DNA of 39,325 nt from Paracoccaceae bacterium (GTDB lineage: Bacteria; Pseudomonadota; Alphaproteobacteria; Rhodobacterales; Rhodobacteraceae). A program made the position numbers and the translations under genes. The DNA is taken from assembly GCA_021775315.1 (NCBI GenBank), contig JAJFIC010000036.1, forward strand, positions 1-39,325, in the 5' to 3' direction. The notes under the pieces are model-generated. The model ran no database searches, had not been told where the DNA came from, and worked only from the letters and a program-made list of their open reading frames with translations. Shown here in pieces: positions 5,246-27,378 of the stretch (positions within the stretch are counted from its first letter, which is position 1; each line of letters begins with the position of its first letter).

Positions 5246-6151
5246 TCAGGAATTGCGCGACAGCATCCAATCCAGAAACTGCTGCTGATGCAGGCTTAGC
5301 GGGCGGTCATTCGGCGCGACAAGATAGATGCCTTGCCCGGTTTCCAGCCACTTGTCCGACACTTGGCATAACCGACCTTGGGCAATCAGGTGTTTGGTCA
5401 GGTGTTCCCAGCCAAGGGCCACGCCCTGTCCCAAAAGCGCACTCCAAATCGCTGAATGATAATCGGAAAATGCCAAATCTTCGCGCATGTTGGCGTGGCC
5501 GATACCGTTGGTGCGAAACCAGTCGGCCCAGTTTACCCGCTGACGTTCGGGTTCCAGCGTGTGCAAAAGGTCCATCTGCGGCAGCGCTGAAATGTCTGAG
5601 ATTTCAGGGTGTTGCGCCACATAATCCGGCGAGGCAACGGCGCAAACCCGTTCGGGGGCCAACAGCCAGGCGTCCAGACCCGCCCAATTGCCATTGCCCA
5701 GCCGCGACGACAGATCATAGTCGCCTTTGCGCAAATCAACCTTGTCGCTGCGGTTTTCATCAATGGCCAGCGCAATTTCGGGGTGCTGGGCCTTGAATTC
5801 GGGTAGATGCGGCAACAGCCACAGTGACACAAAAGACGACGAAAAGCTGACCCTGACCTTGGGGCTTTGCGACGGCGCCGCAATGACCGAGGCGGCATCG
5901 TTCAGCCGCGCCAGCACGGCAGTACATTCAGCGGCAAAAACTTGCCCCTCGGGTGTCAACGCGAGGGTGCGGTGGGCGCGATCAAACAGCTTGACGCCCA
6001 GTCCGTTTTCTACGGCGCGCACTGATTTGCTGATGGCGGGTTGGGATACGCCCAGTTCCAGCGCTGCGGCGGTAAAGGTCAGATGTCGCGCCACGGCCTC
6101 GACCACATAAAGGTGGTTGAGGGAGGGCAGTTTTCGGCGAAGCGGATGCAT
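5246..6151 (-). CDS. LysR family transcriptional regulator, GcvA-like
   Basis: LysR-type regulator of 301 residues. The N-terminal winged helix-turn-helix spans about residues 23-60 (TFTAAALELGVSQPAISKSV), and a periplasmic-binding-protein-like effector domain follows. The beginning KLPSLNHLYVVEAVARHLTF is typical of the GcvA/AmpR-like branch. The gene is divergent from the dimethylglycine-dehydrogenase-like gene at 6244, with 92 bases between starts, so it is the likely regulator of that gene and the MttB homologue behind it. An inverted repeat overlaps its start codon and suggests autoregulation. No good ribosome site is visible before the ATG. The effector is unknown; a methylated amino compound would fit the neighbours. 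Confidence 0.88.
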   Translation of the reverse strand: MHPLRRKLPSLNHLYVVEAVARHLTFTAAALELGVSQPAISKSVRAVENGLGVKLFDRAHRTLALTPEGQVFAAECTAVLARLNDAASVIAAPSQSPKVRVSFSSSFVSLWLLPHLPEFKAQHPEIALAIDENRSDKVDLRKGDYDLSSRLGNGNWAGLDAWLLAPERVCAVASPDYVAQHPEISDISALPQMDLLHTLEPERQRVNWADWFRTNGIGHANMREDLAFSDYHSAIWSALLGQGVALGWEHLTKHLIAQGRLCQVSDKWLETGQGIYLVAPNDRPLSLHQQQFLDWMLSRNS

Positions 6152-6165: not shown

Positions 6166-6243
6166 ACAGGCATGACCCTTTTGCAAGTTCACAACGCAAG
6201 CGCAAAGGCCTAGCGTTTAGCAAAGTCCCAAAGGAGAAATGTG

Positions 6244-8685
6244 ATGAAATCACACGCGCGCGTTGTTGTTGTTGGCGGTGGCTGTGTCGGTGCCGGAATT
6301 CTTTATGGCCTGACCAAACATGGATGTTCTGACGTGGTGATGCTGGAACGCAGCCAGCTAACGTCAGGTTCAACGTGGCACGCGGCGGGGTTGCTGGTGA
6401 CGTTTGTGCGCTCAACCAATGTCAGCCGGATGACGCAGGAAACTATCAACATCTACGGCGAGGTGGAAAAAGAGATCGGCAGCTCGATCGGTCTGAACAA
6501 GGTCGGGCAGTTGCGCGTCGCCAATTCAGTTGCGCGGATGGATGAGTTTCGCAGCTATATCGGCGTGGCAGAAGCCGCCGGGATCGAGGCGGAATTGCTG
6601 ACCCCCGAGCAGGTACAGGAACGCCACCCATTTCTGAACCCTAACGAGAATATTCAGGGCGGCATTTTCCACGCGCAAGACGGTTATGTGAACCCATCCG
6701 ATGTGACGATGGCGATGACCAAACTGGCCCGCGACAAAGGGGCCGTAATCGAACAGGGAACCGAGGCCGAGGCTTATGACGCCCTGCCCGGCGGTGGTTG
6801 GAAAGTGACCACCAATAAGGGTGACATCACTTGCGACCATCTGGTTTTCGCAACCGGCAATTACGCCCGTGAAAACGCAAAACGGGTTGGGCTTGATTTG
6901 CCGTGCATTCCGATTGTGCATCAATACTGGACCACAGAAACCGTTCCGGAACTGCTGGAACGGCGCAAACAGGGCTTGCCGCAATTCCCGATCCTCAGGG
7001 ATGAAGATTACGGTGCGTACCTGCGTGAAGATGTCGGCGGGCTGCAATTTGGCCCGTATGAGGTGGAAAAAGACCTGAAACTTTGGGCCGTTGACGGCGT
7101 GCCAAAGGACTTCGGCATGGATCTGCTGCCCGAGGATTTCGAGGCCTGTGAAACCCAGTGGGAAAAGGCGCTGGAACGGATACCGACGCTTGGCACCGTT
7201 GGGATCAAATCCAACACACGCGGCCCGTTCCAGATGACCCCGGACGAGATGCCATTATGTGGCCCGGCGCCGGGCCTTCAGAACCTGTGGCTGGCCGAGG
7301 GCGTGCCGGGTGGCATTCTGTGGGGCGGCACCATGGGCGAACGGCTTGCGCGCTGGATTCTGACGGGTGATCCCGGCATGGATATGTCGGAAATTGATGC
7401 GCGGCGTTTTGGCAATTACGTCTCAAAACGCTGGACGGCCGACAAGGTGCACCAGACTTGGGGCACGCATATGGAACCGCATATCCCCGGCGAAGATCGC
7501 CCGGCGGCACGGCCCGCCAAGACGGCTGGGTCTTATGACATTCTGACCGCCAAGGGCGCTGTCTGGTCTGTGATGGACGGCTGGGAAGTGCCGCGTTGGT
7601 TTGCACCCAACCCAGAATTGGCCATCCCAGAAAATAGTTTTCGGCGCACCGAGCACATGAAATATGTGCGCAACGAAGTTCGCGCGGTGCGCGAGGCTGC
7701 GGGCCTGATCGACTTGGCACCGATGACGAAATTCAGCGTCAAAGGGCCGGGCGCGGCGCGCTGGCTGGATGGGTTATTCGCCAACGCGCTGCCCAGAATT
7801 GGCCGGGTGGGTCTGACCGTGGCATGCAATGCAAAGGGCGGTATTAAGGGCGAATATACCGTCACGCGCTATGGCGAGAACGATTTTTATCTGGTTTCGA
7901 CCCCCACTGGCGAGGTGCTGAACTGGGATGAATTGTCCCGTGCTTTGCCTGATGATGGCAGTGTGATCCTGCAAAACCTGTCAGAAAGCCTTGGGGTTCT
8001 GGCACTGGCCGGGCCGAAATCGCGCGACATCCTGCAACCCCTGACCGACAACGATCTGTCAAACGAGGCCTTCCCGTGGCTGACCGCGCAGATGGGCGAG
8101 GTTGGTTATGCGCGTGACGTGCATCTGTTGAGGGTGGGCTATACGGGTGAGTTGGGTTGGGAGTTGCATTTCCCGATGGCTTATAGCCGTCATTTGGTTG
8201 ATCTGTTGATCAAAGCCGGTGAACCACACGGCATGAAGCTGTTTGGCCTTGAGGCGCTTGAATCGCTGCGGCTGGAAAAATCTTACCGCGCGTTTCGCCG
8301 TGAATTGGCGCCGGACATCTCGCCGCTTGAGGCGGGGCTGGACCGTTTTGTTAAACTTGAAAAAGGCGATTTTGTTGGCCGCGAGGCGCTGTTGGCGCAA
8401 ACCGCGTCTGGTTTGACCCGCCGTCTTGTCACAATGAAACTGCCTGAAGGCCCGACATCGGTGATCGCCGATGAAGGCGTTTATCAAAACGGCAAACTGG
8501 TTGGGCGTGTGACCTCGGGCGGCTATTCCTATCATTTCAGCCACGATATCGCGATGGCGCTGGTTGATCCGGCCCTAAGCGCGCTCGGCACCAAGTTTGA
8601 GGTTCTTATCCATAATGAAATGCGCCAAGGCGAAGTGGTGGGCGACAGTATGTATGACCCAACCAGCGCCCGCGCCCGAATGTAG
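6244..8685 (+). CDS. FAD-dependent oxidoreductase with C-terminal GcvT domain, dimethylglycine/sarcosine dehydrogenase-like
   Basis: Two-part flavoenzyme of 813 residues, the length of dimethylglycine and sarcosine dehydrogenases. The N-terminal DAO-type FAD domain begins with VVVVGGGCVGAG (7-18) and contains STWHAAGL. In dimethylglycine dehydrogenase the His of this motif carries FAD covalently; here it is His46. A middle FAO-type linker and then a GcvT aminomethyltransferase fold fill about residues 430-810, ending with the conserved GGYSYHFSHDIAMALV stretch. In the family the FAD part oxidises an N-methyl group and the GcvT part captures the one-carbon unit on tetrahydrofolate. ATG 6244 is preferred to GTG 6241, because AAGGAG (6231-6236) is seven bases from it. 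The MttB gene starts nine bases after the stop. The exact N-methylated substrate is not known. Confidence 0.88.
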   Translation: MKSHARVVVVGGGCVGAGILYGLTKHGCSDVVMLERSQLTSGSTWHAAGLLVTFVRSTNVSRMTQETINIYGEVEKEIGSSIGLNKVGQLRVANSVARMDEFRSYIGVAEAAGIEAELLTPEQVQERHPFLNPNENIQGGIFHAQDGYVNPSDVTMAMTKLARDKGAVIEQGTEAEAYDALPGGGWKVTTNKGDITCDHLVFATGNYARENAKRVGLDLPCIPIVHQYWTTETVPELLERRKQGLPQFPILRDEDYGAYLREDVGGLQFGPYEVEKDLKLWAVDGVPKDFGMDLLPEDFEACETQWEKALERIPTLGTVGIKSNTRGPFQMTPDEMPLCGPAPGLQNLWLAEGVPGGILWGGTMGERLARWILTGDPGMDMSEIDARRFGNYVSKRWTADKVHQTWGTHMEPHIPGEDRPAARPAKTAGSYDILTAKGAVWSVMDGWEVPRWFAPNPELAIPENSFRRTEHMKYVRNEVRAVREAAGLIDLAPMTKFSVKGPGAARWLDGLFANALPRIGRVGLTVACNAKGGIKGEYTVTRYGENDFYLVSTPTGEVLNWDELSRALPDDGSVILQNLSESLGVLALAGPKSRDILQPLTDNDLSNEAFPWLTAQMGEVGYARDVHLLRVGYTGELGWELHFPMAYSRHLVDLLIKAGEPHGMKLFGLEALESLRLEKSYRAFRRELAPDISPLEAGLDRFVKLEKGDFVGREALLAQTASGLTRRLVTMKLPEGPTSVIADEGVYQNGKLVGRVTSGGYSYHFSHDIAMALVDPALSALGTKFEVLIHNEMRQGEVVGDSMYDPTSARARM

Positions 8686-8694
8686 GGCATCACA

Positions 8695-10194
8695 ATGGCA
8701 AAACCCATCCGGGCCGGACGCGCCGCCCGCACCCGCGCCCGTAACGAGGCCCCGATCATCTATAAGCCGACGCTTGATCGCGATATTGCCCCGATAAACC
8801 TGCTGGGCGAAGAAGGCGTGGCCCGCATTCATAACGCCGCCATGCAGATCCTTGAAACCATCGGGGTCGAGTTTCGCGACCCCGTGGCACTTGCCGACTG
8901 GAAACGCCGCGGCGCGGAAGTCAGCGGGCAAAACGTGCGCATCGGTCGCGAGATGCTGATGGATTTGATTTCTGCCGTGCCGTCCGGGTATCGTTTTAAC
9001 GCCCGCAATCCGGACTGCAGTGTCACCGTCGGCGGCAATAGCTCGATCTTTGCCAATGTTTATGGAGCGCCTTTTGTTTACGGGCTGGATGGGCAACGCC
9101 GCCCGTCGACGCTGGATGATGCGCAGAATTTCTTTCGTCTGGCGCAGCTTAGTACGTCGATGCATGTCACAGGGATTTTGCCGGTGGAACCGCAGGACGT
9201 GCCGGTGCCCATCCGGCATCTGGAACTTTTGCCATCGGCCCTGCGTCTCAGCGACAAACCTGTGATGGGCAGTGTTGCCTCGGAATCCGCTGCTAAAGAC
9301 ACGATTGAAATGCTGCGCCTTGTGTTTGGGCAGGATTACATGGATCAAAACGTGGTGGTGACCGCGTTGTTGAACTGCAATTCACCGCTGGTCTGGGACG
9401 AGACGATGCTGCAATCTTTGCGCGTCTATGCCGCCGCCAACCAGCCGGCCTTGTTGACGCCGTTCCTGTTGGCGGGGGCCAGTGGCCCGGCCAGCCCGAT
9501 GGGCGGTGTGGCGCAACTGATCGCCGAGGCGCTGGCCGGTATGGCCTATGCGCAGATCATCCGGCGCGGTTGTCCGATGGTGCTGGGTGTGGCGTTGTTC
9601 GGCGTTTCGATGAAAACCGGCGCGCCGATGTGCGGCACACCCGAGCCGAGTTTGATGAACCTTTTGGTGGGTCAGATGGCGCGGTTTTACGACGTTCCGT
9701 GGCGATCTTGCACCATGTGGACCGGTGGCAAGGCGGTTGATCTGCAAGCGGGATATGACAGTGCCAACACCATGTGGCCGGTGCTGCTGGGGGGCTGTAA
9801 TTACATCATGCACGCCGCTGGATTTGTCGAGGGCGCGCTGGGCGTGTCGTATTCGAAATGGGTGCAGGATTCGTATCAACTCGACGGGTTTTACCGGTTC
9901 TTTCGGGGTTTGCAGGACGAAGATCTGGATGCCATTATCGGCGATATTTCCGATGTCGGTCCGGGTGGGCATTTTCTGGGCACCACGCACACGCGGGAAA
10001 ACCCGTTTGTTGTCAATCCTTTGCAGAATAACGACAGCTATGAACAATGGGTCGAGGATGGCGCGAAAAGCGCTGACATCGTTGGGCAGGAAGAGGCAAA
10101 GCGCCTGTTGGACAGCTTTGTAGCGCCACCACTTGCGGCCGATGCTGATGCGGCATTGAGCGAGTTCACCGCCAAGCACAGCGCCGCAGAGTAA
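8695..10194 (+). CDS. Trimethylamine methyltransferase (MttB) superfamily protein, non-pyrrolysine (copy 1)
   Basis: MttB/COG5598-type TIM-barrel methyltransferase of 499 residues. The whole frame is free of internal stops, so it lacks the in-frame amber codon that encodes pyrrolysine in true trimethylamine methyltransferase. It belongs with the non-pyrrolysine homologues such as MtgB (glycine betaine:corrinoid methyltransferase). Segments shared with the second copy at 15333 include NSPLVWDETML, SMKTGAPM/SMKSGAPM, GQMARFYDVPWR and DVGPGGHFLG. It lies nine bases behind the flavoprotein with AGGG as a weak ribosome site, so the two form one transcript. Known homologues transfer methyl from a quaternary amine to a corrinoid protein, but no corrinoid protein is encoded in the window. 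The substrate and methyl acceptor are open questions. Confidence 0.85.
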   Translation: MAKPIRAGRAARTRARNEAPIIYKPTLDRDIAPINLLGEEGVARIHNAAMQILETIGVEFRDPVALADWKRRGAEVSGQNVRIGREMLMDLISAVPSGYRFNARNPDCSVTVGGNSSIFANVYGAPFVYGLDGQRRPSTLDDAQNFFRLAQLSTSMHVTGILPVEPQDVPVPIRHLELLPSALRLSDKPVMGSVASESAAKDTIEMLRLVFGQDYMDQNVVVTALLNCNSPLVWDETMLQSLRVYAAANQPALLTPFLLAGASGPASPMGGVAQLIAEALAGMAYAQIIRRGCPMVLGVALFGVSMKTGAPMCGTPEPSLMNLLVGQMARFYDVPWRSCTMWTGGKAVDLQAGYDSANTMWPVLLGGCNYIMHAAGFVEGALGVSYSKWVQDSYQLDGFYRFFRGLQDEDLDAIIGDISDVGPGGHFLGTTHTRENPFVVNPLQNNDSYEQWVEDGAKSADIVGQEEAKRLLDSFVAPPLAADADAALSEFTAKHSAAE

Positions 10195-10198
10195 CGCG

Positions 10199-11332
10199 CT
10201 AGAGCAGAGCGCTAAGGCCGGAAACCAGCCGGTCGAAATCCTCGTCATTGTTCCACAGATGTGGTGTGATCCTGAGCGAGCCACCGCGCTCGGACAGATA
10301 GACACCGTCTTGGGCCAGTTTTTGCAGCAAATCCTTGGGCGCGCCTTTGGGCAATCCGGCGCCAATGAAATGCGGGCCACGCGCGGCCTCGGGCGTTGGT
10401 GACAGGCCAAGTGCGGTCAGGCGTGCGCTAAGCGCGCGGTTTCTGTCTGCCAATGTCGCCTCGATATTGGCCACGCCCCAATCGGTTAGCTGCTGCAATG
10501 CCGCGACAACCCCGGGCATCAGGGCGAAATTGGCGCGCTCGCCCATGTCATAGCGTACCGCGCCGGGCGCATATTCGTCGGTGTAGTTCACAAGGCCTGA
10601 GAAATCCTGGCTGTCTTTGCGGGCAACCCAGCCCTCTTCCAGCGGGTCACCGTCGCGCTGGTGCGGGGCGGCGTATAAAAACCCGGTCGCATAGGGGCCA
10701 AGCAGCCATTTGTAGCAGGCAACGACCGCAAAATCAGGCCGGATGGCGGCAAAATCCGTGACCATTGCCCCGGCGGATTGCGTCAGATCTAGCACCAAGG
10801 CCGCGCCGACCTGATCACACCGCGCCCGCACGGCGGCCAGATCAATCACCGCACCGTTGGTCCACAGCACGTTGGGCAGGGCGGCCACCGCGCAGCGTTC
10901 GTCAATGGCGGCCAGCACAGACCCGGTCAGGGTGTCGCCGTTTGCGGCCTCAACCCGGATCACCTCGCCGCCCTGTTCGCGTACCAAACGTTGCCAAGGA
11001 TAGACATGCGACGGGAACTGGTTTGCCAGCATCACCACACGCCGCCCCGGCCCGACAGACAGGTTTTTGGCCGCTGTTTCCATACCGTAAGACGCGGATG
11101 GCACAATGGCCACGCCGTCAGGAACGGCGTTGACCAACCCGGCAAACAAAGCGCGGGCGTGGTCAACGCTGTCATAAAAATCCGGGATCGTCAGTGTCCA
11201 TGGTGTGGATTTGCGGCGCACGCCACCGTCAATGGCAGTTACCACTGAATGCATCAGCGGCGACATATAGGCGGTGTTCAGATAGGCCACCTCGGGCGGG
11301 ATCGAAAAAAGATGGCGTTGGCAGGAAATCAT
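10199..11332 (-). CDS. PLP-dependent class V aminotransferase family protein
   Basis: Fold-type I PLP enzyme of 377 residues in the class V group (cysteine desulfurase, kynureninase, isopenicillin N epimerase relatives). The PLP-binding Lys is Lys208 in VACYKWLLGP, and the cofactor-contacting Asp is Asp182 in LDLTQSAGA. ATG 11332 is chosen over TTG 11335, with CGGAG seven bases upstream. It converges on the first MttB gene with only four bases between stops, and diverges from the GntR operon across about 155 bases. It could share the GntR-controlled intergenic region. The family includes lyases, epimerases and transaminases, so the reaction is not determined. Removal of an amino or beta substituent from the demethylated product is plausible from context only. 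Confidence 0.83.
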   Translation of the reverse strand: MISCQRHLFSIPPEVAYLNTAYMSPLMHSVVTAIDGGVRRKSTPWTLTIPDFYDSVDHARALFAGLVNAVPDGVAIVPSASYGMETAAKNLSVGPGRRVVMLANQFPSHVYPWQRLVREQGGEVIRVEAANGDTLTGSVLAAIDERCAVAALPNVLWTNGAVIDLAAVRARCDQVGAALVLDLTQSAGAMVTDFAAIRPDFAVVACYKWLLGPYATGFLYAAPHQRDGDPLEEGWVARKDSQDFSGLVNYTDEYAPGAVRYDMGERANFALMPGVVAALQQLTDWGVANIEATLADRNRALSARLTALGLSPTPEAARGPHFIGAGLPKGAPKDLLQKLAQDGVYLSERGGSLRITPHLWNNDEDFDRLVSGLSALL

Positions 11333-11453
11333 CAATTGCTCCGTAACTATAGCGCGGCTTGGGGGATTCTCCCGTGGCCGATCTGCGCATTGTTGCTGTC
11401 ATTGTCAGCGGTTTCAATGGGGCGTGTCTTTGGGTCTTGCAAAATCTCGAATA

Positions 11454-11472
11454 TTGTATACAAAAAGTATAC
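11454..11472. promoter_or_regulatory. GntR(FCD)-type operator before the gntR gene
   Basis: A perfect ten-base palindrome TTGTATACAA (11454-11463) is followed by a second GTATAC (11467-11472), 11 bases from the first. Palindromes of the TTGTATACAA form are typical FCD-GntR operators. The pair ends 16 bases before the TTG start of the GntR gene, where bound protein would block transcription or initiation. It lies in the divergent region shared with the class V PLP enzyme. Autoregulation is inferred. Confidence 0.65.
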
Positions 11473-11488
11473 GAACGGAGAGCGCCCC

Positions 11489-12193
11489 TTGCCCAAAGAC
11501 AACAAACTCAACTGCCTGACCGATCTGCGCACCCGCATTCTGACGTTGGATATCGCGCCGGGTGAAGATCTGGACGAGGCGAACCTGTGCGAAACCTACG
11601 GTATTTCCCGAACACCTTTGCGCGAGGTCCTGCAACGTCTGAACGGCGAGGGATATGTCAGGCTGGAACAAAACCGAGGTGCCAAAGTGGCGTCAATGGA
11701 TCTGGCGGTGATGCGCAGCTTCTTTCAGACAGCGCCGCTGATTTACGCCACGGTATCCAGACAAGCCGCTGAAAATCGGCAGGCGCGCCAGATCGGCCCG
11801 CTTAAAGACACGCAAAGCCAGTTCCTTAAGGCGATATCGTCAGGTGACGCGGGCGGTGCCGCCATTCACAACCATCGCTTCCATGAACAGATCGGTGAGA
11901 TGGCGCAAAATCCCTATTTGCTGCCCAGCCTCAACCGGATGCTGATCGACCACACACGGCTGGGTCAGACGTTTTACCGGCCAGCCTCGCCTGCGGAAAC
12001 CATGCTGATCATCAAGGCCGGTCAACACCATGATCTGATGATTGACGCGATTGAGGCGCAAGATCCTGACCTTGCCGTCGATCTGACGCTGGAACATTGG
12101 GACCTGTCGCGCGACCGTCTGGAACGCTTTGTGCGGCCTGATCCGTTACCGCTTGATATGATTTCGTCAAAGGACAAAAAACATGCAGTTTGA
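11489..12193 (+). CDS. GntR family transcriptional regulator, FCD subfamily
   Basis: GntR regulator of 234 residues. The N-terminal winged helix contains CETYGISRTPLREVLQRLNGEG, the recognition helix pattern of the family. The all-helical FCD effector domain follows, with metal/effector-type His residues in NHRFHEQIGEMAQNPYL and GQHHDLMIDAI. The start is taken as TTG at 11489, eight bases after CGGAG (11476-11480). Longer in-frame starts would run back through the promoter and the GTATAC operator and add non-family sequence. It is the first gene of an operon and overlaps the DapA-family gene by 11 bases. It probably represses its own operon until a pathway compound binds. The effector is not known. 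Confidence 0.87.
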   Translation: MPKDNKLNCLTDLRTRILTLDIAPGEDLDEANLCETYGISRTPLREVLQRLNGEGYVRLEQNRGAKVASMDLAVMRSFFQTAPLIYATVSRQAAENRQARQIGPLKDTQSQFLKAISSGDAGGAAIHNHRFHEQIGEMAQNPYLLPSLNRMLIDHTRLGQTFYRPASPAETMLIIKAGQHHDLMIDAIEAQDPDLAVDLTLEHWDLSRDRLERFVRPDPLPLDMISSKDKKHAV

Positions 12194-13091
12194 AGGCATT
12201 TATACCCCGGTTGTGACACCCTATCACGACGATTTCTCCCTTAACCAAGGCGCGCTGGCCGCAACAATTGAATATCTGATTGATGCGGGTGTGCATGGCA
12301 TCGTCGTCGCCGGAACCACGGGTGAATATTACGCCCAAAGCATGCAGGAACGCATTGATCTGATGCCTGTGTGCAAATCGCTGATCGCAGGCCGGGTGCC
12401 GATGATTGTCGGCACGGGGGCGATGCGGACCGAAGACAGCATTGTTTATGCTGAGGCCGCCAAGGCCACTGGCGCCGACGCGCTGTTGGTTGCGACACCG
12501 CCCTATGCCTACCCGACGGCGCGCGAAATTGCCCTGCATGCGCTGGCAATTGACCGCGCGGCAAACATGCCGGTTATGCTTTACAATTATCCCGGCCGGA
12601 TGAGCGTCAATATGGATGAAGAAACGCTCGATCGTCTGGGCCGCAGCCCGAATTTCTGCGCCATCAAGGAAAGCTCGGGCGATCCAAATCGGTTGCACAT
12701 GCTGGCGCGGGATTATCCGCATATACAACTAAGCTGCGGCATGGACGATCAGGCGCTGGAATTTTTCGCCTGGGGCGCACGCAGTTGGGTGTGTGCCGGG
12801 TCGAATTTCGCCCCCAAGGCGCATATCGCGCTTTATCAGGCCTGCGCGGTTGAGGGCGATTTCGCCAAAGGCCGCGCTATCATGTCGGCGATGTTGCCGC
12901 TGATGCGGGTCTTGGAACAGGGCGGAAAATTCGTCCAATGCATCAAATACGGCCTGACATTGCAGGGCATAGACGCGGGCCCACCGCGCCGACCGCTGCA
13001 ACCGCTGAACAAAGACGACAAGCGCCAATTGGGCGAAGTGGTCAAGACCATGAACACAACCATTGCCCGCATCACAGGAGTGGCCCAATGA
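12183..13091 (+). CDS. Dihydrodipicolinate synthase/N-acetylneuraminate lyase (DapA) family protein
   Basis: Class I aldolase-type (beta/alpha)8 enzyme of 302 residues. The DapA-family residues are all visible: GTTGE (44-48), catalytic Tyr134 in LYNYPG and Schiff-base Lys162 in IKESSGD. Members form a Schiff base with a 2-oxo acid and then add, cleave, dehydrate or deaminate. A housekeeping lysine-pathway DapA is unlikely, because the gene sits inside a catabolic operon between GntR and an aldehyde dehydrogenase. In known pathways DapA-family members paired with an aldehyde dehydrogenase include 5-keto-4-deoxyglucarate dehydratase and pyrroline-4-hydroxy-2-carboxylate deaminase, both yielding alpha-ketoglutarate semialdehyde. 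Either type would suit. The ribosome site AAAGGA lies inside the end of gntR. Confidence 0.88.
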   Translation: MQFEGIYTPVVTPYHDDFSLNQGALAATIEYLIDAGVHGIVVAGTTGEYYAQSMQERIDLMPVCKSLIAGRVPMIVGTGAMRTEDSIVYAEAAKATGADALLVATPPYAYPTAREIALHALAIDRAANMPVMLYNYPGRMSVNMDEETLDRLGRSPNFCAIKESSGDPNRLHMLARDYPHIQLSCGMDDQALEFFAWGARSWVCAGSNFAPKAHIALYQACAVEGDFAKGRAIMSAMLPLMRVLEQGGKFVQCIKYGLTLQGIDAGPPRRPLQPLNKDDKRQLGEVVKTMNTTIARITGVAQ

Positions 13092-14578
13092 CCGATCTGT
13101 TGACACATGCCGAATATCAGGCCCTTGCAAAGGCGCTGGACCCGCCGCGAACCGCCTTTATCGACGGGAAATTCCGGGCGGGGCAGGGTGCCACAATGCC
13201 AACGCACAATCCAGCCACGGGCGAGGTGATTTGCGAGATTGCCAGCTGTAACAGTGACGATGTGGATATCGCGGTTGCCAAAGCCCGCGATGCATTTGAT
13301 CAGGGCCATTGGGCGCGTCTGCATCCCACAGAACGCAAGGATGTTCTGATTGGGTTTTGCAAACTGATAACCCGCAACCGGCGTGAATTGGCGGTGCTGG
13401 AGAGCTTGGACAGCGGCAAGCCTATTCGCGATTGCGAACTGATTGATGTTCCGGAAACCATCAGCACGATCAAATGGCACGCCGAAGCAATCGACAAGAT
13501 CTATGACCAAACCGGCCCGGCCGGGGATGATGCGATTTCGATGATCGTGCGCGAACCTATTGGTGTGGTGGTGGCCATTCTGCCGTGGAATTTCCCGCTT
13601 TTGATGATGGCGTGGAAAATCGGCCCGGCACTGGCGGCTGGCAATGCCGTGATTGTCAAACCGGCCGAGCAAACCTCGTTAACCGCGCTGCGTCTGGCCG
13701 AACTGGCGATGGAGGCCGGGCTGCCCCGTGGCGTTCTGCAAGTTCTGCCCGGCGATGGGCCGAGCGTTGGCGAGCCTTTGGGCCGACATCCCGATGTTGA
13801 CATGGTCAGCTTTACCGGCTCGACCGAAACCGGGCGGCGTTTTTTGCACTATTCCGCTGACAGTAACCTCAAGAAAGTCGTGCTGGAATGTGGCGGTAAG
13901 AATCCGGCTGTGGTTCTGGAAGATGCGGAAAACCTTGATCATGTGGCCGGGCATGTGGTGAACGCCGCATTCTGGAACATGGGTGAGAATTGTTCAGCAG
14001 CGTCGCGCCTGATCGTGCATAGCGCGGTCAAAAAGCCGTTGATGGATCGTATCCTTGCGCGTCTGCGCGACTGGAAAACCGGCGATCCGCTGGACCCGGC
14101 CAATCATCTGGGCGCGCTGATTGATGCTGCGCATTGCGCCAAGGTTGCAGGCTATCTGACCCCAAACGCTGTGACCGGTGGTGAAATTGACGGGCCTTAC
14201 GTCGCGCCCACGATCTATGATGTGACCAAAGATGATGTAAAAGCGCGGGACGAGATTTTCGGCCCGGTTTTAAGCGTGATCGAGGTCAACAGCCGGGACG
14301 AGGCCGTGGCGCTGGCCAATGACACCGATTATGGCCTGACCGCCAGTGTGTTCACCGGCAACATCCGCGCCGCTTTGCTAACCGCGCGCGAAATCAAGGC
14401 CGGAACGGTTTCGGTCAATTGCTATGGCGAGGGTGATATTTCCACCCCGTTTGGCGGCTTCAAGCAATCTGGGTTTGGTGGGCGCGATAACGGTCTGGCC
14501 GCGCATGACCAGTTTACCGAATTGAAAACCATCTGGGTCGATCTGACCGACCCTTCTGCCGGGGATGCAATCACATGA
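13088..14578 (+). CDS. NAD(P)-dependent aldehyde dehydrogenase (first of two)
   Basis: Aldehyde dehydrogenase of 496 residues, full family length. It has the oxyanion Asn168 in ILPWNFP, the NAD(P)-contact motif VKPAEQTS and FTGSTETGR. The general-base Glu267 is in LECGGKN and the catalytic Cys302 in MGENCSAASR. ATG 13088 overlaps the TGA of the DapA-family gene (ATGA), which gives translational coupling and decides this start over an upstream in-frame one inside the preceding gene. Sequence style is that of betaine/gamma-aminobutyraldehyde dehydrogenases. In context it would oxidise a semialdehyde or amino-aldehyde produced by the lyase or by the flavoprotein of the same operon. The exact substrate cannot be read. 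Confidence 0.9.
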   Translation: MTDLLTHAEYQALAKALDPPRTAFIDGKFRAGQGATMPTHNPATGEVICEIASCNSDDVDIAVAKARDAFDQGHWARLHPTERKDVLIGFCKLITRNRRELAVLESLDSGKPIRDCELIDVPETISTIKWHAEAIDKIYDQTGPAGDDAISMIVREPIGVVVAILPWNFPLLMMAWKIGPALAAGNAVIVKPAEQTSLTALRLAELAMEAGLPRGVLQVLPGDGPSVGEPLGRHPDVDMVSFTGSTETGRRFLHYSADSNLKKVVLECGGKNPAVVLEDAENLDHVAGHVVNAAFWNMGENCSAASRLIVHSAVKKPLMDRILARLRDWKTGDPLDPANHLGALIDAAHCAKVAGYLTPNAVTGGEIDGPYVAPTIYDVTKDDVKARDEIFGPVLSVIEVNSRDEAVALANDTDYGLTASVFTGNIRAALLTAREIKAGTVSVNCYGEGDISTPFGGFKQSGFGGRDNGLAAHDQFTELKTIWVDLTDPSAGDAIT

Positions 14579-15336
14579 GCCGCGTCGGGTTTATCGGCAC
14601 GGGCCACATCGCCGCCCCAATGGCGCGGTTTTTGGTGCGCAAGGGGCATGATGTCATCGTGTCAGAACGCAATGCTGTGGTCGCAGGCGCATTAGTGGCG
14701 GCGTTCCCGGAAATCAAAATCGCGGATAATCAGGGCGTCGTGGACAATGCCGACATCGTGTTTCTGTGTATGCGCCCGCATATTTGGGGCGACGTCGTGC
14801 CGGGTTTGACCTTCCGCGCCGATCAGCAGATCGTTTCGGTGATGGCCGGGGTGACATTGGCCGAACTTCGCACGGCCTGCGCCCCTGCCAGCCAGATTTC
14901 CATGACGATCCCGATCGGGTTTCTTGAATTTGGCGGCTGCCCGCTGCCCGCTTGCCCCGACGGCGAGACACTGGGTGCGTTGTTTGCGCCTGAAAATCCA
15001 GTGCTGCCGGTGCCGGACGAGGCGGCCTTTACCCAACATTTCGCCGCCTCAGCCATGTTATCAGCCGTGCTTGGCGTGATGGAGGAAGGCGCCGATTGGT
15101 TGGGCGCGACCACGGGGGATAGAAAACAGGCCGAGGTTTATGTGGCGGCCCTGATTTCGGGATTTCTGGCGGATATGCCAAAGGACGGCCAAGCCCGGCT
15201 GGCAGAATACAAGAACGGGCTGGCGACAAAAGGCACGCTGAATTTGCAGATGGTCGAAGGGCTGGAAGACGGCGGTGCCATCGAAACCTTACGCACGACA
15301 CTCACGGAAATCGGCAAACGGATGACCCTGACATGA
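14575..15336 (+). CDS. NAD(P)-binding protein, pyrroline-5-carboxylate reductase-like
   Basis: Protein of 253 residues with an N-terminal Rossmann fold (VGFIGTGHIAAP, 4-15) and a helical C-terminal half, the layout of pyrroline-5-carboxylate reductases and related 6-phosphogluconate-dehydrogenase-like enzymes. The VFLCMRPH and QIVSVMAGVTLAELR stretches match the P5CR pattern (FLAVKPQ..., ...AGVTLA.L). The family reduces a cyclic imine with NAD(P)H. The C-terminal half is less typical, so it may act on a different imine, amino or keto compound. It overlaps the aldehyde dehydrogenase and the second MttB gene by ATGA on each side, so expression is tightly linked to both. A role in handling a cyclic imine formed by the operon's flavoprotein is an inference. 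Confidence 0.75.
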   Translation: MSRVGFIGTGHIAAPMARFLVRKGHDVIVSERNAVVAGALVAAFPEIKIADNQGVVDNADIVFLCMRPHIWGDVVPGLTFRADQQIVSVMAGVTLAELRTACAPASQISMTIPIGFLEFGGCPLPACPDGETLGALFAPENPVLPVPDEAAFTQHFAASAMLSAVLGVMEEGADWLGATTGDRKQAEVYVAALISGFLADMPKDGQARLAEYKNGLATKGTLNLQMVEGLEDGGAIETLRTTLTEIGKRMTLT

Positions 15337-16886
15337 GCGCGCCGGACCTCGCCCCGACAAGGCGCGGCGGACGTGGCGCGCGACGCGAGATGCGCGCCCA
15401 ACATGATTTCACAATGCTGCCCGCGCTCAAGCGCAACCTGCCGCTGACCGAACCGATGGACGCAGAACAAATCGCCCGGATTGATGCCGCGTCAATGGCG
15501 ATCCTGCAAGAGGTCGGCGTGGTTTTTCGCGACCCCATCGCGCTAGAAGATTGGCGTCAGGCAGGGGCTGATGTACGTGGTGAAACTGTGTATCTGGACG
15601 AAGCCCTTGTGCGAAGCCTGATTTCGACAATTCCGTCAAGTTTTACCTATCACGCCAGAAACCCCGCCAATAACCTGCCTTTTGGCAAAGACCGTTCGAT
15701 TTTCGTGCCCATGACCGGCGCGCCTTATCTGCGTGATCTTGATGACGTCCGGCGCAACCCGACGCTTGATGATCTGGCGAATTTTCACAAGCTCAGCCAT
15801 ATGATGCCGTCGATGCATTCCAGCGCGCATCACATTGTCGAACCTTATGATCACGCCATCAGCCACCGGCATCTGCGCATCACCTATTCGTCGATGAAAT
15901 ACAGCGACAAGACCTTTATGGGCATGACCACCAGCCCCAAAAATGCCGAGGATGTGCTGGACATGGCAGCGATCCTGTTTGGCGAGGATTTTCTGGAAAC
16001 CCATCCCGTTGTAACGGGAAACTGCAACGGCAATTCACCGCTGGTCTGGGACGAAACAATGCTGGGCGCGATGCGCGCCTTTGCCCGGCGCAACCAGCCG
16101 GTTTTATGCTCGCCCTTCGTTCTTGGCGGGGCCAACACCCCGGCCAGCGTCGCCCCCACAGTGGCGCAATTGAACGCCGAGGCTTTGTCGGCACTGGCCT
16201 ATACCCAAGTGATCCGCAAAGGCACGCCTGCGATTTATGGCCATTATCTGGCGACCGTGTCGATGAAATCCGGCGCGCCGATGGCGGGAACGCCGGAAAT
16301 CAGTCTGATGAATTTCATGATCGGCCAGATGGCGCGGTTCTACGATGTGCCCTGGCGGACCTCGAACACTTTGGGCGGGTCCAAAACCTTTGACGCCCAA
16401 GCGGGCTATGAAAGTGCGACGACCCTGATGGCGGTGATGATGGCGGGGGCGAATTACATCTGGCATTCCGCTGGCTGGAACGAGGCCGGGATGCATTGCT
16501 CGACGGCGAAATTTGTGGTCGATGCCGAACAATGCGCCATGGCGTACCGCATGGCCGAGGGTATCCGCTGGGACGATTTTGACGAAGCTCTGGCAGCGGT
16601 GCGCGATGTCGGCCCCGGTGGGCATTATCTGGGCCACCCGCACACGCTTGAAAACTTTGAACGCGGGTTTTTTATGCCCGAGATGTTTGACAATAACTCG
16701 ATCGAACAATGGCAGGCCGAAGGCGCGGTTGAGACCAACGAGCGTGGCTTGAAACGCGCCCGGCATTTGCTGAATGAATACGAAGAACCACATCTGGACC
16801 CGGCCAAGAACGAGGCACTGCTGGATTACATAGCGCGGCGCGAGCGTGAAATTCCCGCGGCAGACGCCCTTAATCAGGATTATTAG
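15333..16886 (+). CDS. Trimethylamine methyltransferase (MttB) superfamily protein, non-pyrrolysine (copy 2)
   Basis: Second MttB/COG5598 protein, 517 residues, clearly paralogous to the one at 8695. It shares FRDPIALEDW/FRDPVALADW, NSPLVWDETML, SMKSGAPM, GQMARFYDVPWR and DVGPGGHYLG. The frame has no internal amber codon; the TAG at 16884-16886 is its true end, since the frame closes again four codons later. It overlaps the P5CR-like gene by ATGA and is followed 11 bases on by a flavoprotein gene. Known non-pyrrolysine members demethylate glycine betaine, proline betaine, carnitine or related compounds with a corrinoid protein as acceptor. None is encoded nearby. The first 35 residues are rich in Arg and Pro and precede the conserved domain. 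Substrate unknown. Confidence 0.85.
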   Translation: MSAPDLAPTRRGGRGARREMRAQHDFTMLPALKRNLPLTEPMDAEQIARIDAASMAILQEVGVVFRDPIALEDWRQAGADVRGETVYLDEALVRSLISTIPSSFTYHARNPANNLPFGKDRSIFVPMTGAPYLRDLDDVRRNPTLDDLANFHKLSHMMPSMHSSAHHIVEPYDHAISHRHLRITYSSMKYSDKTFMGMTTSPKNAEDVLDMAAILFGEDFLETHPVVTGNCNGNSPLVWDETMLGAMRAFARRNQPVLCSPFVLGGANTPASVAPTVAQLNAEALSALAYTQVIRKGTPAIYGHYLATVSMKSGAPMAGTPEISLMNFMIGQMARFYDVPWRTSNTLGGSKTFDAQAGYESATTLMAVMMAGANYIWHSAGWNEAGMHCSTAKFVVDAEQCAMAYRMAEGIRWDDFDEALAAVRDVGPGGHYLGHPHTLENFERGFFMPEMFDNNSIEQWQAEGAVETNERGLKRARHLLNEYEEPHLDPAKNEALLDYIARREREIPAADALNQDY

Positions 16887-16897: not shown

Positions 16898-18229
16898 ATG
16901 AAAGTGCGTAGCCTGCCTAACGACCCCGGCCCGGCAGGCTGGAATTGTCTGTTGCCAGCGCCATCGCCGGCGCAGGTGCTGACGGGGTCTGAAACTGCTG
17001 ACTGGCTGGTGGTCGGTGGTGGGTTTGCCGGGCTTGCCGCCGTGCGCCGCTTGTCCCAACTGCACCCGTCTGATCGGATTGTTCTGCTTGAGGCACGCCG
17101 CATCGCCGAGGGTCCCGCCGGGCGCAATTCCGGGTTTATGATTGATTTGCCGCACGATCTGGCCTCAGCCGATTACGGTGGGGCGATTGCGGAGGACAAA
17201 GCCCAGACCCACGCCAACCGTGCCGCAATCCGCTTTGCCGAACAGATGGCGCAGGATTTCGACTTGCCAGCCGAGGCGTTTGTCCAGTCGGGCAAGATCA
17301 ACGCAGCGGCCACGGAAAAAGGCCACGACCACAACCGGGATTACGCCGCCCATCTGGCGCAGATGGACGAGCCGTGCAGATTGCTGGGCGCGGGCGATAT
17401 GGCCCGGATTACCGGAACGCAGTATTACCAAAGCGGTTTGTTCACACCGGGAACGGCCATGATCCAACCGGCGATGTTTGTGCGCGGTATCGCGGGTGCA
17501 TTGGCGTCTGAGCGTGTGCGTATTCTTGAAAACAGCCCGGTGATTGCGCTGGATCGCGATGGCGACTGGGTGGCCACGACACCCAAAGGTCGCGTGACGG
17601 CGCCGCGCGTGATCCTTGCGGTGAACGGACATGCAAACAGCTTTGGTTATTTCCCCAAACGCCTGATGCATGTGTTCACCTATGCCTCAATGACCCGCGC
17701 GCTAAGCCAAGATGAGGACCGGGTTCTGGGCGGCGAGGCGACGTGGAATATGACCCCAGCCGATCCAATGGGCACCACGGTGCGCCGGGTTGCGGGCCTT
17801 GGCGGCAGCCGGATTATCATCCGAAACCGGTTCACCTATGATCCTGCGATGGTTGTGTCGGACCGGCGGATTGCGCATGTGGCCAAGGATCACAGACGGG
17901 CCTTTGCCGCGCGGTTTCCGATGCTGAAAGAGGTTGAATTTGACTATAGCTGGGGCGGGCGATTATGCCTGAGCTGGAACAATGTCGCCGCCTTTGGCGA
18001 GGTCGCGCCGCAGCTTTATGCCGCTTGCTGCCAGAACGGTCTTGGCACGGCCAAAGGCACGCTGAATGGAATGCTGGCGGCGGAAATGGCCTCGGGCATC
18101 GCTTCGGAATTGTTATCAGCACAACTGGCCACAGCCGCGCCCAAACGTGTGCCGCCGTCGCCTTTCGATTGGATCGGTGCCACGGCGCGGTTGAAGTATT
18201 CTGAATATATAGCAGGCCGCGAGATGTAA
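16898..18229 (+). CDS. FAD-dependent oxidoreductase of the D-amino-acid oxidase/glycine oxidase type
   Basis: DAO-superfamily flavoprotein of 443 residues without a GcvT tail. The dinucleotide-binding motif VVGGGFAGLAA starts at about residue 38, with a GRNSGFM stretch after it as in gamma-glutamylputrescine oxidase (PuuB)-like proteins. The C-terminal FAD contact is around SWGGRLCLSWNN and GLGTAKGTLNG. The family oxidises a C-N bond to an imine. It is the last gene of the GntR-led operon, 11 bases after the second MttB gene. It would suit oxidation of the secondary or tertiary amine left by demethylation, giving an aldehyde or cyclic imine for the aldehyde dehydrogenase or the P5CR-like protein. 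That order of steps is inferred. No strong ribosome site is visible before the ATG. Confidence 0.83.
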   Translation: MKVRSLPNDPGPAGWNCLLPAPSPAQVLTGSETADWLVVGGGFAGLAAVRRLSQLHPSDRIVLLEARRIAEGPAGRNSGFMIDLPHDLASADYGGAIAEDKAQTHANRAAIRFAEQMAQDFDLPAEAFVQSGKINAAATEKGHDHNRDYAAHLAQMDEPCRLLGAGDMARITGTQYYQSGLFTPGTAMIQPAMFVRGIAGALASERVRILENSPVIALDRDGDWVATTPKGRVTAPRVILAVNGHANSFGYFPKRLMHVFTYASMTRALSQDEDRVLGGEATWNMTPADPMGTTVRRVAGLGGSRIIIRNRFTYDPAMVVSDRRIAHVAKDHRRAFAARFPMLKEVEFDYSWGGRLCLSWNNVAAFGEVAPQLYAACCQNGLGTAKGTLNGMLAAEMASGIASELLSAQLATAAPKRVPPSPFDWIGATARLKYSEYIAGREM

Positions 18230-22895: not shown

Positions 22896-24131
22896 ATGGT
22901 AGATAAAACAATTCTGGTTGTCGGAACCTACGACACCAAAAACGACGAACTGGAATATATGGCAGCGCGCATTCGCGCCCAAGGCGGTGGCGTGCTGTCG
23001 ATGGATGTCAGCGTGTTGGGGGATCCTGAAAAGCCGACGGATTATTCCAAGCATCAGGTGGCCGAGGCTGGTGGCAGTTCTATTCAAGCCGCGATTGACA
23101 GTGGCAGCGAACATCTTGCGATGAACATCATGTCAGACGGTGCCTGCGTTCTGGCGCAAAAACTGCTGGCCGAGGGGAAATTCGACGGTGTGGTTATTCT
23201 TGGCGGCACCATGGGCACGGATCTGGCGCTGGATGTGTGCCAATCCCTGCCGTTGGGCGTGCCAAAATATGTGGTGTCCACCGTGTCGTTTTCGCCGGTA
23301 ATTCCGGCAGAGCGTTTGTCGGCTGACATTCAGATGATCCTTTGGGCTGGTGGGCTTTATGGGTTGAACTCGATCTGTAAATCTTCGCTGTCACAGGCCG
23401 CCGGGGCCGTTTTGGGGGCCGCCCGCGCGGTGGAGCCTGCAAGCGGGGATCGTCCGGTTGTCGGTATCACGTCGCTTGGCACCTCGTGCCTGAAATATGT
23501 CAAAGCGTTGAAACCAGCGCTTGAAGAACGCGGCTATGAGGTGGCGATTTTCCATTCTATGGGCATGGGCGGCATGGCGTTTGAATCTATCGCGGCAAGC
23601 AACGGTTTTGTCTGTGTGATGGATTTCACCGCTTGCGAGCTGGGCAATCTGATGGTTGGCTCAGTCATTAACGCAGGCCAGGATCGGCTGTTGTCGGCGG
23701 GTCGTGCAGGCATTCCACAGATCGTGGCACCCGGTTGTTTCGATCTGATTGATTTTGCCGGTTGGCAGGAAATCCCGGCGCAATTTCAGGATCGCCCGAT
23801 CCATATTCACAACAAGCTGATCAAAAACACGGCCTTTAACGCTGAGGAGCGGCGCGGCACGGCGCGGGAATACACCCAACGTCTGGGGCAAAGTGCGGCA
23901 CCGGTTCATCTGATCTTACCGAATCAGGGAATCGAGGAATGGGATCGCCCCGGTGGCGATGCCCATGATCCCGAGGCGTTGACGGCTTTCATGGATGAAA
24001 TGCGCAAATCGGTGCAGCCTCAGACCCGTATGACGGAACTGGATTGCCATATCAACGACGTTGAATTCACTGACAAAGCCTTGGAAATCTTTGACGGGTG
24101 GGTCGCAAGTGGCGTGGTCGCCAAGGCCTGA
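22896..24131 (+). CDS. Tm-1-like ATP-binding domain protein (UPF0261 family)
   Basis: Protein of 411 residues of the UPF0261/Tm-1-like family, named after the N-terminal domain of the tomato Tm-1 resistance protein. It begins with the family signature ILVVGTYDTKNDELEYMA, has the glycine-rich GGTMGTDLAL and SVSFSPVI regions, and a second half with ITSLGTSCLKYV, FHSMGMGGMAFE and APGCFDLIDF. The length equals the stand-alone family. The biochemical function in bacteria is not established. In many genomes a Tm-1-like protein is next to or fused to a TIM-barrel phosphoenolpyruvate-hydrolase-family protein; that partner is absent here. AAAGGAGAG lies just before the ATG. It is followed by the TctCBA transporter and an aldehyde dehydrogenase, so it may process an imported carboxylate. 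Confidence 0.88.
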   Translation: MVDKTILVVGTYDTKNDELEYMAARIRAQGGGVLSMDVSVLGDPEKPTDYSKHQVAEAGGSSIQAAIDSGSEHLAMNIMSDGACVLAQKLLAEGKFDGVVILGGTMGTDLALDVCQSLPLGVPKYVVSTVSFSPVIPAERLSADIQMILWAGGLYGLNSICKSSLSQAAGAVLGAARAVEPASGDRPVVGITSLGTSCLKYVKALKPALEERGYEVAIFHSMGMGGMAFESIAASNGFVCVMDFTACELGNLMVGSVINAGQDRLLSAGRAGIPQIVAPGCFDLIDFAGWQEIPAQFQDRPIHIHNKLIKNTAFNAEERRGTAREYTQRLGQSAAPVHLILPNQGIEEWDRPGGDAHDPEALTAFMDEMRKSVQPQTRMTELDCHINDVEFTDKALEIFDGWVASGVVAKA

Positions 24132-24187
24132 ATGGGCGATGGCCAAAGGGTGGTTTTGAAATGTTCTGCCAAGCATCTTGACAGGTC

Positions 24188-24204
24188 GTCGCAGTATATG
24201 CGAC
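24188..24204. promoter_or_regulatory. Inverted repeat upstream of tctC, candidate operator
   Basis: GTCGCA and TGCGAC form a perfect six-base inverted repeat with a five-base AT-rich spacer. It sits 57 bases before the tctC start and directly after a TTGACA sequence at 24178-24183, which may be a -35 element; the -10 at the right spacing is poor. It may be the site through which the IclR regulator controls transport. This rests on form and position only. Confidence 0.45.
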
Positions 24205-24261
24205 ATTTTACGCTCCATTGGTGTTAATAATGAACCGATAATCCGACTGGGAGGTCGAAAT

Positions 24262-25194
24262 ATGAGCAAATTTAAAGTTGCCCTGGCCGCGTCGTTGCTT
24301 TTTGCAACAACCGCTATGGCTGAATATCCTGAAAAGCCCGTCTCGTTCATCGTGCCGTGGCCTCCGGGAGATCTGGAAGACGTGCTGACGCGAATGATCG
24401 CTGACGACTTTCAAAAAGAATATGGTGTTGCGGCGGCTGTCGTGAACAAACCCGGTGGCGGCGGTGGCCCGTTCCCCGGTGCAATCGAAGTGGCAGGCGC
24501 ACCTGCTGACGGCTATACCATCGGCTCGTTCATCATCGCGGTGCCTGTTGTTGGCCCGTTCATCGGTATTCCTGAACTGGACCCGAACCCGTTCGAGCCT
24601 TTGGGCAATTTCCTGACATATCCGTTCGTGATCGCCGCTGGTGAAAACGCGCCATATGACGACATTGCCGGGCTTGCGGCCCATGCGCAAAACAACGAAG
24701 TGGCACTGGGCCATTTTGGCGCGCCGCTGGTTCCAACTAAGGTGACATTGGCACTGGCCAAAGCAAAAGGCTTTGAGTTTGCGTCAGACGCTGCGTTTGA
24801 CATGCTTGACTGTAACACGCTGGCTTCGGGCGATGTGGACGTGATCAACACCACGCTGCAACTGATCCTGCCTTGCCTTGACAAGGTCAAGATTCTGGCC
24901 TCGATCGGGGGCGAGCGGATCAGCCTGACACCGGACGCACCAACCGTTGCTGAACTGGCACCGGAACTGGATGTGGCATTGTGGAACGGCTTGTTCGTTC
25001 ACAAAGACACACCACAGGACGTGCGTGAAAAGATTATTGCGGTCGCTAAAAAGACTGTGATGTCTGACGCTGCCCAGAAACTTGCCGCTGAAACTGGTGC
25101 GCTGGTTTACTGGCAGGATGCGGCTGATGTTAACGCACAGATCGACAAAGATATCGCCACACTTGGCACGATCGGCAAAATGCTGGAAGAATAA
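24262..25194 (+). CDS. tctC: Tripartite tricarboxylate transporter substrate-binding protein
   Basis: Periplasmic binding protein of 310 residues of the TctC/BugT family. The N-terminal signal peptide is visible: basic MSKFK, a hydrophobic stretch and cleavage probably after TAMA, before EYPEK. Family features follow: KPVSFIVPWPPGD, the VVNKPGGGGG loop and ADGYTIGSF. It captures a carboxylate and delivers it to the TctA/TctB membrane complex. The ATG at 24262 is selected because GGGAGG lies seven bases before it and the signal peptide begins there; an upstream in-frame start at 24178 would put about 28 unrelated residues before the signal. It heads the transporter genes, and a strong stem-loop separates it from tctB. 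The substrate is not known; tricarboxylates, dicarboxylates and aromatic acids are all used by this family. Confidence 0.9.
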   Translation: MSKFKVALAASLLFATTAMAEYPEKPVSFIVPWPPGDLEDVLTRMIADDFQKEYGVAAAVVNKPGGGGGPFPGAIEVAGAPADGYTIGSFIIAVPVVGPFIGIPELDPNPFEPLGNFLTYPFVIAAGENAPYDDIAGLAAHAQNNEVALGHFGAPLVPTKVTLALAKAKGFEFASDAAFDMLDCNTLASGDVDVINTTLQLILPCLDKVKILASIGGERISLTPDAPTVAELAPELDVALWNGLFVHKDTPQDVREKIIAVAKKTVMSDAAQKLAAETGALVYWQDAADVNAQIDKDIATLGTIGKMLEE

Positions 25195-25213
25195 TCCAGC
25201 CTGATTAGAAATT

Positions 25214-25246: not shown

Positions 25247-25296
25247 GTTTGCAAATAACGGTTTCCAATTGGCGCTTTGCGCCGCCCGGGGGGTAT

Positions 25297-25836: not shown

Positions 25837-25847
25837 GGACAAATACG

Positions 25848-27371: not shown

Positions 27372-27378
27372 TTCCCGA

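Follow-up and report, generated by a model that had tools for sequence, protein, structure and literature searches.

The window analysed here, a stretch of 39,325 nucleotides that forms contig C41 of a Paracoccaceae genome of 3.69 Mb in 111 contigs, carries two genes of the MttB family of methyltransferases (PF06253, MTTB). MttB1 (positions 8695 to 10194, plus strand, 499 amino acids) and MttB2 (15333 to 16886, plus strand, 517 amino acids) are covered nearly full-length by the family profile, at 557 and 715 bits, far above its curated cut-off of 25 bits. They share 44% identity over 473 aligned residues, in keeping with the long common stretches noticed in an initial annotation of this DNA. 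That annotation also remarked that each gene has a flavoprotein beside it, which we find at 6241-8685 and 16898-18229, and that no corrinoid protein, corrinoid:folate methyltransferase or activase is encoded in the 39 kb. Genome-wide searches agree, as B12-binding_2, RACo_C_ter and Pterin_bind gave no match on the window contig at E≤0.001. Two explanations had been offered: corrinoid partners encoded elsewhere, or another methyl acceptor, such as folate in a GcvT domain. Our results argue for the first. Both proteins are very probably MtgB/MtpB-type betaine:corrinoid methyltransferases that use a shared corrinoid hub encoded elsewhere in the same genome.

Neither protein is of the pyrrolysine type, and the claim that both lack an in-frame amber codon is correct. 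MttB1 and MttB2 contain zero internal in-frame stops, and the TAG of MttB2 is its ordinary terminal stop. The position of Pyl334 in the trimethylamine (TMA) enzyme (PDB 7xcl) is occupied by Trp (TGG) in MttB1 and by Leu (TTG) in MttB2; it is also Leu in 2qne (MtgB) and 4yyc. The profile for pyrrolysine-type MttB, TIGR02369, scores 202 bits for MttB1 and 286 bits for MttB2, both under its cut-off of 525. Among solved structures the top relative of both is 4yyc, at 405 bits for MttB1 and 500 bits for MttB2, followed by 2qne and 9yce (325 and 364 bits), which share one sequence in our alignment; 9yce carries the name glycine betaine methyltransferase. The TMA enzyme 7xcl reaches just 79 and 105 bits. 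MttB1 is predicted to be a non-pyrrolysine MttB-family betaine:corrinoid methyltransferase and MttB2 a proline/hydroxyproline-betaine:corrinoid methyltransferase. At the position of Glu347, MttB1 has Asp, and every other aligned sequence has Glu. This substitution and the Trp at the pyrrolysine position would suit the idea that the two genes are mere remnants or now serve some function other than methyl transfer, which we regard as very unlikely: both genes are intact, MttB2 lies in a compact operon, and relatives at 70-84% identity were found in several genera. Separately, a pyrrolysine reading was ruled out for the genome at large, with no internal stop codon in any of its ten MttB matches.

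The genome search that the initial annotation had proposed, for a MttC/MtbC-type corrinoid protein, a RamA-type activase and cobalamin synthesis, gave a corrinoid protein of the MtgC type, a RamA-type activase and, for cobalamin synthesis, CobT. Profile searches of all contigs found ten PF06253 genes and one PF02607 match. The latter belongs to the sole stand-alone corrinoid protein, which is of the MtgC type, has B12-binding_2 and B12-binding domains and is encoded on contig C45, on the same strand as an MtgE-type homocysteine methyltransferase and a DUF1638 gene that directly adjoins it. Against the NCBIfam model corrin_MtgC_2 this corrinoid protein scores 190 bits, under the cut-off of 370, and the MtgE-type protein scores 583 bits (cut-off 338) against a model named betaine--homocysteine S-methyltransferase. 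MetH contains PF02607 as well, and the single match therefore suggests that the genome has no full-length MetH. The pterin-binding, MtgD-type protein is encoded on contig C51 and matches NF005719, the model for methyltetrahydrofolate:corrinoid methyltransferases, at 398 bits (cut-off 259); a second Pterin_bind match, on contig C37, is probably an ordinary dihydropteroate synthase. Two genes past the MtgD-type gene, C51 ends within a RACo/RamA activase gene, whose remainder lies at the end of C9, so that this gene is split by an assembly gap across two contig ends (L017 and L018). CobT, of aerobic B12 synthesis, is encoded as well. Since the corrinoid hub is encoded in the same genome, an alternative methyl acceptor is unnecessary. 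The hub is probably common to the ten MttB enzymes and methionine synthesis.

The same parts, scattered over the genome and with one MtgC for several MttB proteins, are known from the MtgBCD(E) system of Ruegeria pomeroyi DSS-3 and the split methionine synthase of Phaeobacter inhibens. In R. pomeroyi, mtgC and mtgD mutants can no longer synthesise methionine or use glycine betaine for growth (PNAS 2025, PMC12478193). The same paper states that as many as seven PF06253 genes, which may serve other methylated compounds, occur alongside mtgC and mtgD. PMC5764234 describes the methionine synthase of P. inhibens as an enzyme in three parts, accompanied by RamA-like and DUF1638 proteins. The ten MttB genes found here slightly extend the number of seven, and whereas the R. 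pomeroyi mutants test glycine betaine, MttB1 and MttB2 are other branches with other neighbours. Both also resemble MtgB (9yce/2qne) and the Eubacterium MttB-superfamily enzymes MtpB, MtcB and MtyB, of which MtpB acts on proline betaine (PMC12478193), in family, in the lack of pyrrolysine and in the presence of several paralogues per corrinoid protein. In contrast to the latter enzymes, which come from anaerobes, the MttB genes of the window have flavoprotein neighbours. The system is a known one, and MttB1 and MttB2 are plausibly new substrate-specific members of it.

If the MttB enzymes depend on the hub, the two should occur together. We looked for PF06253 (scored as presence or absence), RACo (PF14574) and the MtgC protein in 196 genomes with a completeness of at least 90%; these had been drawn for the order, and all are listed in the window's own family. 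MttB was present in 182 genomes, RACo in 181 and an MtgC orthologue (E < 1e-100) in 181, with all three together in 180. The 15 genomes without an MtgC orthologue gave only weak MtgC matches (1e-23 to 1e-27) and are exactly the 15 without RACo; we class these matches as MetH-like by score, the reading frame having been examined in G039 and G149 only. MttB is absent from 13 of these 15 hub-less genomes, and the hub occurs without MttB in only one of the 196 (G157). The 13 genomes in which all three are absent comprise nine of genus g7, two of g19, one of g45 and one of g65, while another g7 genome, G048, carries MttB, MtgC and RACo. The association of MttB with the hub is strong (Fisher p 2e-17), although this test ignores kinship and the number of independent losses is therefore lower than 13.

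The loci of mtgC on plasmids show a similar association. We inspected four of 21 records, and in three of the four MttB adjoins mtgC or lies one gene off. In Paracoccus aminovorans it adjoins mtgC in the company of DUF1638, methylene-folate reductase, MtgD and an ASKHA activase; in Sinorhizobium meliloti it also adjoins mtgC; and in Aminobacter aminovorans it lies one gene away, with an enzyme of the mandelate racemase/muconate lactonizing enzyme (MR/MLE) family also present. No MttB is annotated at the mtgC locus of Mesorhizobium onobrychidis, but because the plasmid gene tables are incomplete, absences at these loci are weak. The mtgC-linked MttB proteins of Sinorhizobium and Paracoccus are 63-65% identical to a paralogue on contig C34 of the present genome, to which MttB1 and MttB2 are only 40-43% identical. 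Judged by these similarities, the C34 paralogue is a likelier glycine betaine enzyme than either.

Several findings weigh against the proposed partnership. Two of the 182 MttB-bearing genomes, G039 and G149, have MttB without the hub, and each has a single PF02607 match, in a frame as long as MetH (1276 or 1296 amino acids). Their orphan MttB proteins (L074 and L075) match the C34 type at 74% and the C59 type at 61%, and neither is of the MttB1 or MttB2 type. These two genomes could mean that some MttB-family enzymes of the group work without a dedicated hub and pass the methyl group to MetH cobalamin or to folate, which we consider very improbable; if hub-free function were general, MttB1, beside a GcvT-bearing flavoprotein, could do likewise. 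The docking residues speak neither for nor against the partnership. We aligned the ten paralogues with three PDB chains and compared the corrinoid-binding residues known from the MttB-MttC complex (PMC9842639). The residue equivalent to Gly372 of the TMA enzyme remains Gly in MttB2 but is replaced by Ala in MttB1 and by Phe in 2qne (MtgB), and within the set of ten paralogues the conservation of the partner-contacting loop 396-452 does not exceed that of the barrel (p 0.58). The docking residues do not discriminate, because MtgB itself lacks the contacts reported for the TMA enzyme and, around Gly110, the alignment is ambiguous by one residue. Finally, metF2 adjoins mtgD in R. pomeroyi, and an unmatched open reading frame (ORF) takes that place here: the gene directly upstream of mtgD (L017, 1743-2672) matched no Pfam or NCBIfam family and did not match the methylene-folate reductase of Paracoccus aminovorans. 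A counterpart of the R. pomeroyi metF2 gene is therefore unconfirmed in this genome.

The flavoprotein beside MttB1 (6241 to 8685, plus strand, 814 amino acids) has the domains DAO, FAO_M, GCV_T and GCV_T_C, the C-terminal part forming a folate-binding GcvT domain, and its stop is separated from the MttB1 start by a gap of 9 bp. It gives a nearly full-length match to solved dimethylglycine dehydrogenases (DMGDH), with 5l46, 4pab and 4p9s as the top structures at 558-565 bits, and is predicted from this similarity to take a second N-methyl group onto tetrahydrofolate. It resembles DMGDH in architecture and sequence, is encoded by one of 14 genes with an FAO_M domain in this genome, and may differ in substrate. 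A LysR-type regulator (5246 to 6151, minus strand; Pfam LysR_substrate/HTH_1) is divergent from the flavoprotein-MttB1 pair. On the other side, a class V aminotransferase (10199 to 11335, minus strand; Aminotran_5, 78 bits) is convergent with MttB1, and its membership in the pathway is uncertain.

The pairing extends beyond the window. Half of the ten MttB genes adjoin a DMGDH-like gene, on C41, C10 (with two DMGDH-like genes), C21, C16 and C76 (divergent), so that six of the 14 DMGDH-like genes are involved. Random placement of 14 and ten genes gave a mean of 0.17 paired MttB genes and a maximum of three in 20,000 trials, a crude null that ignores operon clustering. Among 24 listed loci of the MttB1 type we scanned seven at 70% identity or more and one plasmid locus, and L047 was seen by annotation only. 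In all eight scanned loci, MttB1 (70-74% identity), a DMGDH-like ORF and a LysR-family ORF occur together. The LysR-family ORFs are 28-52% identical to that of the window, and in L056 this ORF is on the same strand as the pair; L056 also has MttB in two frames, an altered order and a DMGDH just 50% identical. On contig C10 (L021, 1607-9682), an MttB gene is followed by two tandem DMGDH-like genes and a class III aminotransferase, as if two flavoproteins took off two successive methyl groups. Another cluster, on contig C84 (L042, 7693-14403), combines an MR/MLE enzyme, a DMGDH-like flavoprotein and a Rieske oxygenase; this oxygenase is most like the glycine betaine monooxygenase GbcA, at 142 bits and under the cut-off of 670, and oxygenase-type demethylation may coexist in the same genome.

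The placement of a GcvT-bearing flavoprotein directly beside MttB1 and four other MttB genes could also be read as a sign that tetrahydrofolate held by the neighbour's GcvT domain is the direct acceptor of the methyl group from MttB, without a corrinoid. We consider such a transfer the least probable of the explanations weighed here. The flavoprotein beside MttB2 has no GcvT domain, and DMGDH-like enzymes occur independently of MttB, because eight of the 14 FAO_M genes, one of them truncated at a contig end, have no MttB gene next to them. The near absence of MttB from genomes without the hub also speaks against it. Dimethylglycine dehydrogenase is known for the oxidative removal of a later N-methyl group, and its chemistry yields methylene-folate, not methyl-folate. 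The suggestion that folate in the GcvT domain is the methyl acceptor is thus unsupported, the neighbour in question being a DMGDH homologue. The simplest reading of the gene pairs is a division of labour in which the corrinoid enzyme would open the quaternary amine and the flavin enzyme would oxidise the remaining tertiary or secondary amine, with the carbon passing to folate.

MttB2 lies in a different setting, an operon in the order GntR, DHDPS, aldehyde dehydrogenase, pyrroline-5-carboxylate-reductase-like enzyme, MttB2 and DAO. The GntR/FCD regulator (11249 to 12193, plus strand; Pfam) is 63% identical to its Yoonia counterpart. The DHDPS-family enzyme (12183 to 13091, plus strand; DHDPS, 209 bits) is a predicted HypD-like deaminase; it has 66% and 68% identity with the enzymes at the epimerase-bearing loci of Leisingera and Cereibacter and 85% with that of Yoonia, and it resembles many PDB entries without one standing out (best 148 bits). 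The aldehyde dehydrogenase (13088 to 14578, plus strand; Aldedh, 516 bits) has an open frame from 12938, and the ATG at 13088, which overlaps the preceding gene by 4 bp, is the likelier start. Overlaps of 4 bp also join it to the reductase-like gene (14575 to 15336, plus strand; F420_oxidored, 56 bits) and that gene to MttB2. The reductase-like protein scores 167 bits against PRK06476, under the cut-off of 254, and was not matched by the Aminobacter reductase at E 1e-8. Eleven bp past MttB2 starts a DAO-family flavoprotein without a GcvT domain (16898 to 18229, plus strand; DAO, 131 bits), predicted to be a D-(hydroxy)proline or N-methylproline oxidase; phmmer found no solved relative at E≤1e-6, and its counterparts at MttB2-type loci are 48-50% and 64% identical. 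Farther along the window (22896-28863) come, in this order, a UPF0261 protein, a TctCBA tripartite transporter and a second aldehyde dehydrogenase, a region that may feed in another substrate.

By family and neighbourhood, the deaminase, the aldehyde dehydrogenase and the D-amino-acid oxidase of the hydroxyproline-betaine/hydroxyproline (Hpb/Hyp) pathway thus all appear to be present around MttB2. Orthologues of MttB2 (74-84%) occur on plasmids of Leisingera, Cereibacter, Yoonia, Phaeobacter, Ruegeria, Mesorhizobium and others, and we inspected ten of 33 matches in this range. The DHDPS, aldehyde dehydrogenase and DAO genes are found in eight of the ten loci, a BCCT or glycine-betaine/proline ABC transporter in five and an intact MR/MLE enzyme in four, two of these in closely related Leisingera; the Yoonia locus has the gene order of the window minus the reductase. 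For two of these MR/MLE enzymes the match to PDB 4e8g/4izg/4j1o reaches 632 and 672 bits. Over 4e8g/4izg/4j1o and 2pmq/4h2h, which we take to be HpbD, the hydroxyproline-betaine epimerase/proline-betaine racemase, of Paracoccus and Pelagibaca, the scores of these two enzymes are 525-672 bits, and the next best structures reach 222-225 bits. The MttB2 orthologue of C. sphaeroides 2.4.1 lies beside such an epimerase-type MR/MLE gene, and, according to the review PMC11337228, proline betaine is broken down in Rhodobacter sphaeroides and Paracoccus denitrificans via two successive demethylations.

Some MttB1-type loci offer clues of the same kind. The Aliiroseovarius locus L054 combines LysR, DMGDH, MttB and BCCT genes with an MR/MLE enzyme of the same type (600 bits), and a Rhodobacteraceae metagenome-assembled genome (L053) has MttB1, Ldh_2 and MR/MLE. 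In a check of ten ORFs from four loci, these two were the ones with an MR/MLE gene; the one ORF tested in L052 and the two tested in L055 are not MR/MLE. Because of the Hyp-type genes, the MR/MLE enzymes, the transporters and the C. sphaeroides link, proline-type betaines are favoured for MttB2 and less so for MttB1. Proline or hydroxyproline betaine is a reasonably probable substrate of MttB2, and for MttB1 we suggest a related amino-acid betaine only tentatively.

Other observations count against these substrates. The window contig has no MR/MLE match and so no HpbD-type epimerase, and the closest MR/MLE homologue in the genome, on contig C65, shares only about 50-52% identity with those of Leisingera and Cereibacter. 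No intact MR/MLE gene is present at six of the ten MttB2-type loci. The PDB table gives 4e8g and 2pmq only the generic name mandelate racemase/muconate lactonizing enzyme. Two of the ten MttB2-type loci have a ring-hydroxylating (Rieske-type) oxygenase gene in their flank, and MttB2 therefore need not be the sole demethylase there. It is possible, though less likely than not, that MttB1 and MttB2 use the hub for quaternary amines of another kind, such as glycine betaine, carnitine or an algal betaine. The presence of intact MR/MLE genes at only part of the loci (four of ten of the MttB2 type, and two of the four MttB1-type loci from which ORFs were checked) would fit such substrates, as would the lack of an MR/MLE match on the window contig and of a betaine-type transporter among the 31 window ORFs scanned with Pfam. 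Against them stand the recurrence of HpbD-type, HypD-, HypH- and HypO-like enzymes as neighbours and the low identity of MttB1 and MttB2 to the C34 paralogue, the likelier glycine betaine enzyme.

Compared with the Hpb/Hyp pathway, the MttB2 operon shares the DHDPS-type deaminase, the aldehyde dehydrogenase and the DAO, and some relatives add the HpbD-type epimerase and betaine transporters. In the studies of that pathway by Zhao in 2013 and Kumar in 2014, the demethylases tested were reportedly Rieske oxygenases; here an MttB-family enzyme stands in the place of the demethylase, with a Rieske-type gene nearby only at the two loci already named. Our literature search, which did not extend to the original Hpb/Hyp studies, found no report of cobalamin-dependent proline-betaine demethylation in aerobes.

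Starting from the observed genes, their families, the hub and its co-occurrence with MttB, we infer which proteins work together, which way the methyl groups flow and what the substrates are, as follows. A betaine would enter the cell, and MttB would take one methyl group off its quaternary nitrogen and load it onto the cob(I)alamin carried by the single MtgC. From there MtgD would pass the methyl group to tetrahydrofolate, or MtgE to homocysteine, while the RamA-type activase, with DUF1638, would rescue oxidised cobalamin. The resulting tertiary amine would go to the flavoprotein. In the MttB1 branch, the DMGDH-like enzyme would remove the next methyl group as methylene-tetrahydrofolate; in the MttB2 branch, the DAO, the DHDPS-type deaminase and the aldehyde dehydrogenase would carry the ring towards 2-oxoglutarate.

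An absent neighbour gene is thus, in this case, no sign of an absent partner. The hub model, in which one corrinoid protein serves many betaine demethylases and methionine synthesis, apparently has genetics for glycine betaine only, and the predicted substrates are worth testing, as is the proposed sharing of work between the corrinoid and the flavin enzymes. If MttB1 and MttB2 use the hub for proline-type betaines, a set of marine and root-nodule bacteria would have an oxygenase-free, B12-dependent first step in the use of these osmolytes, and the MttB/DMGDH gene pairs would aid in reading substrate ranges from genomes.

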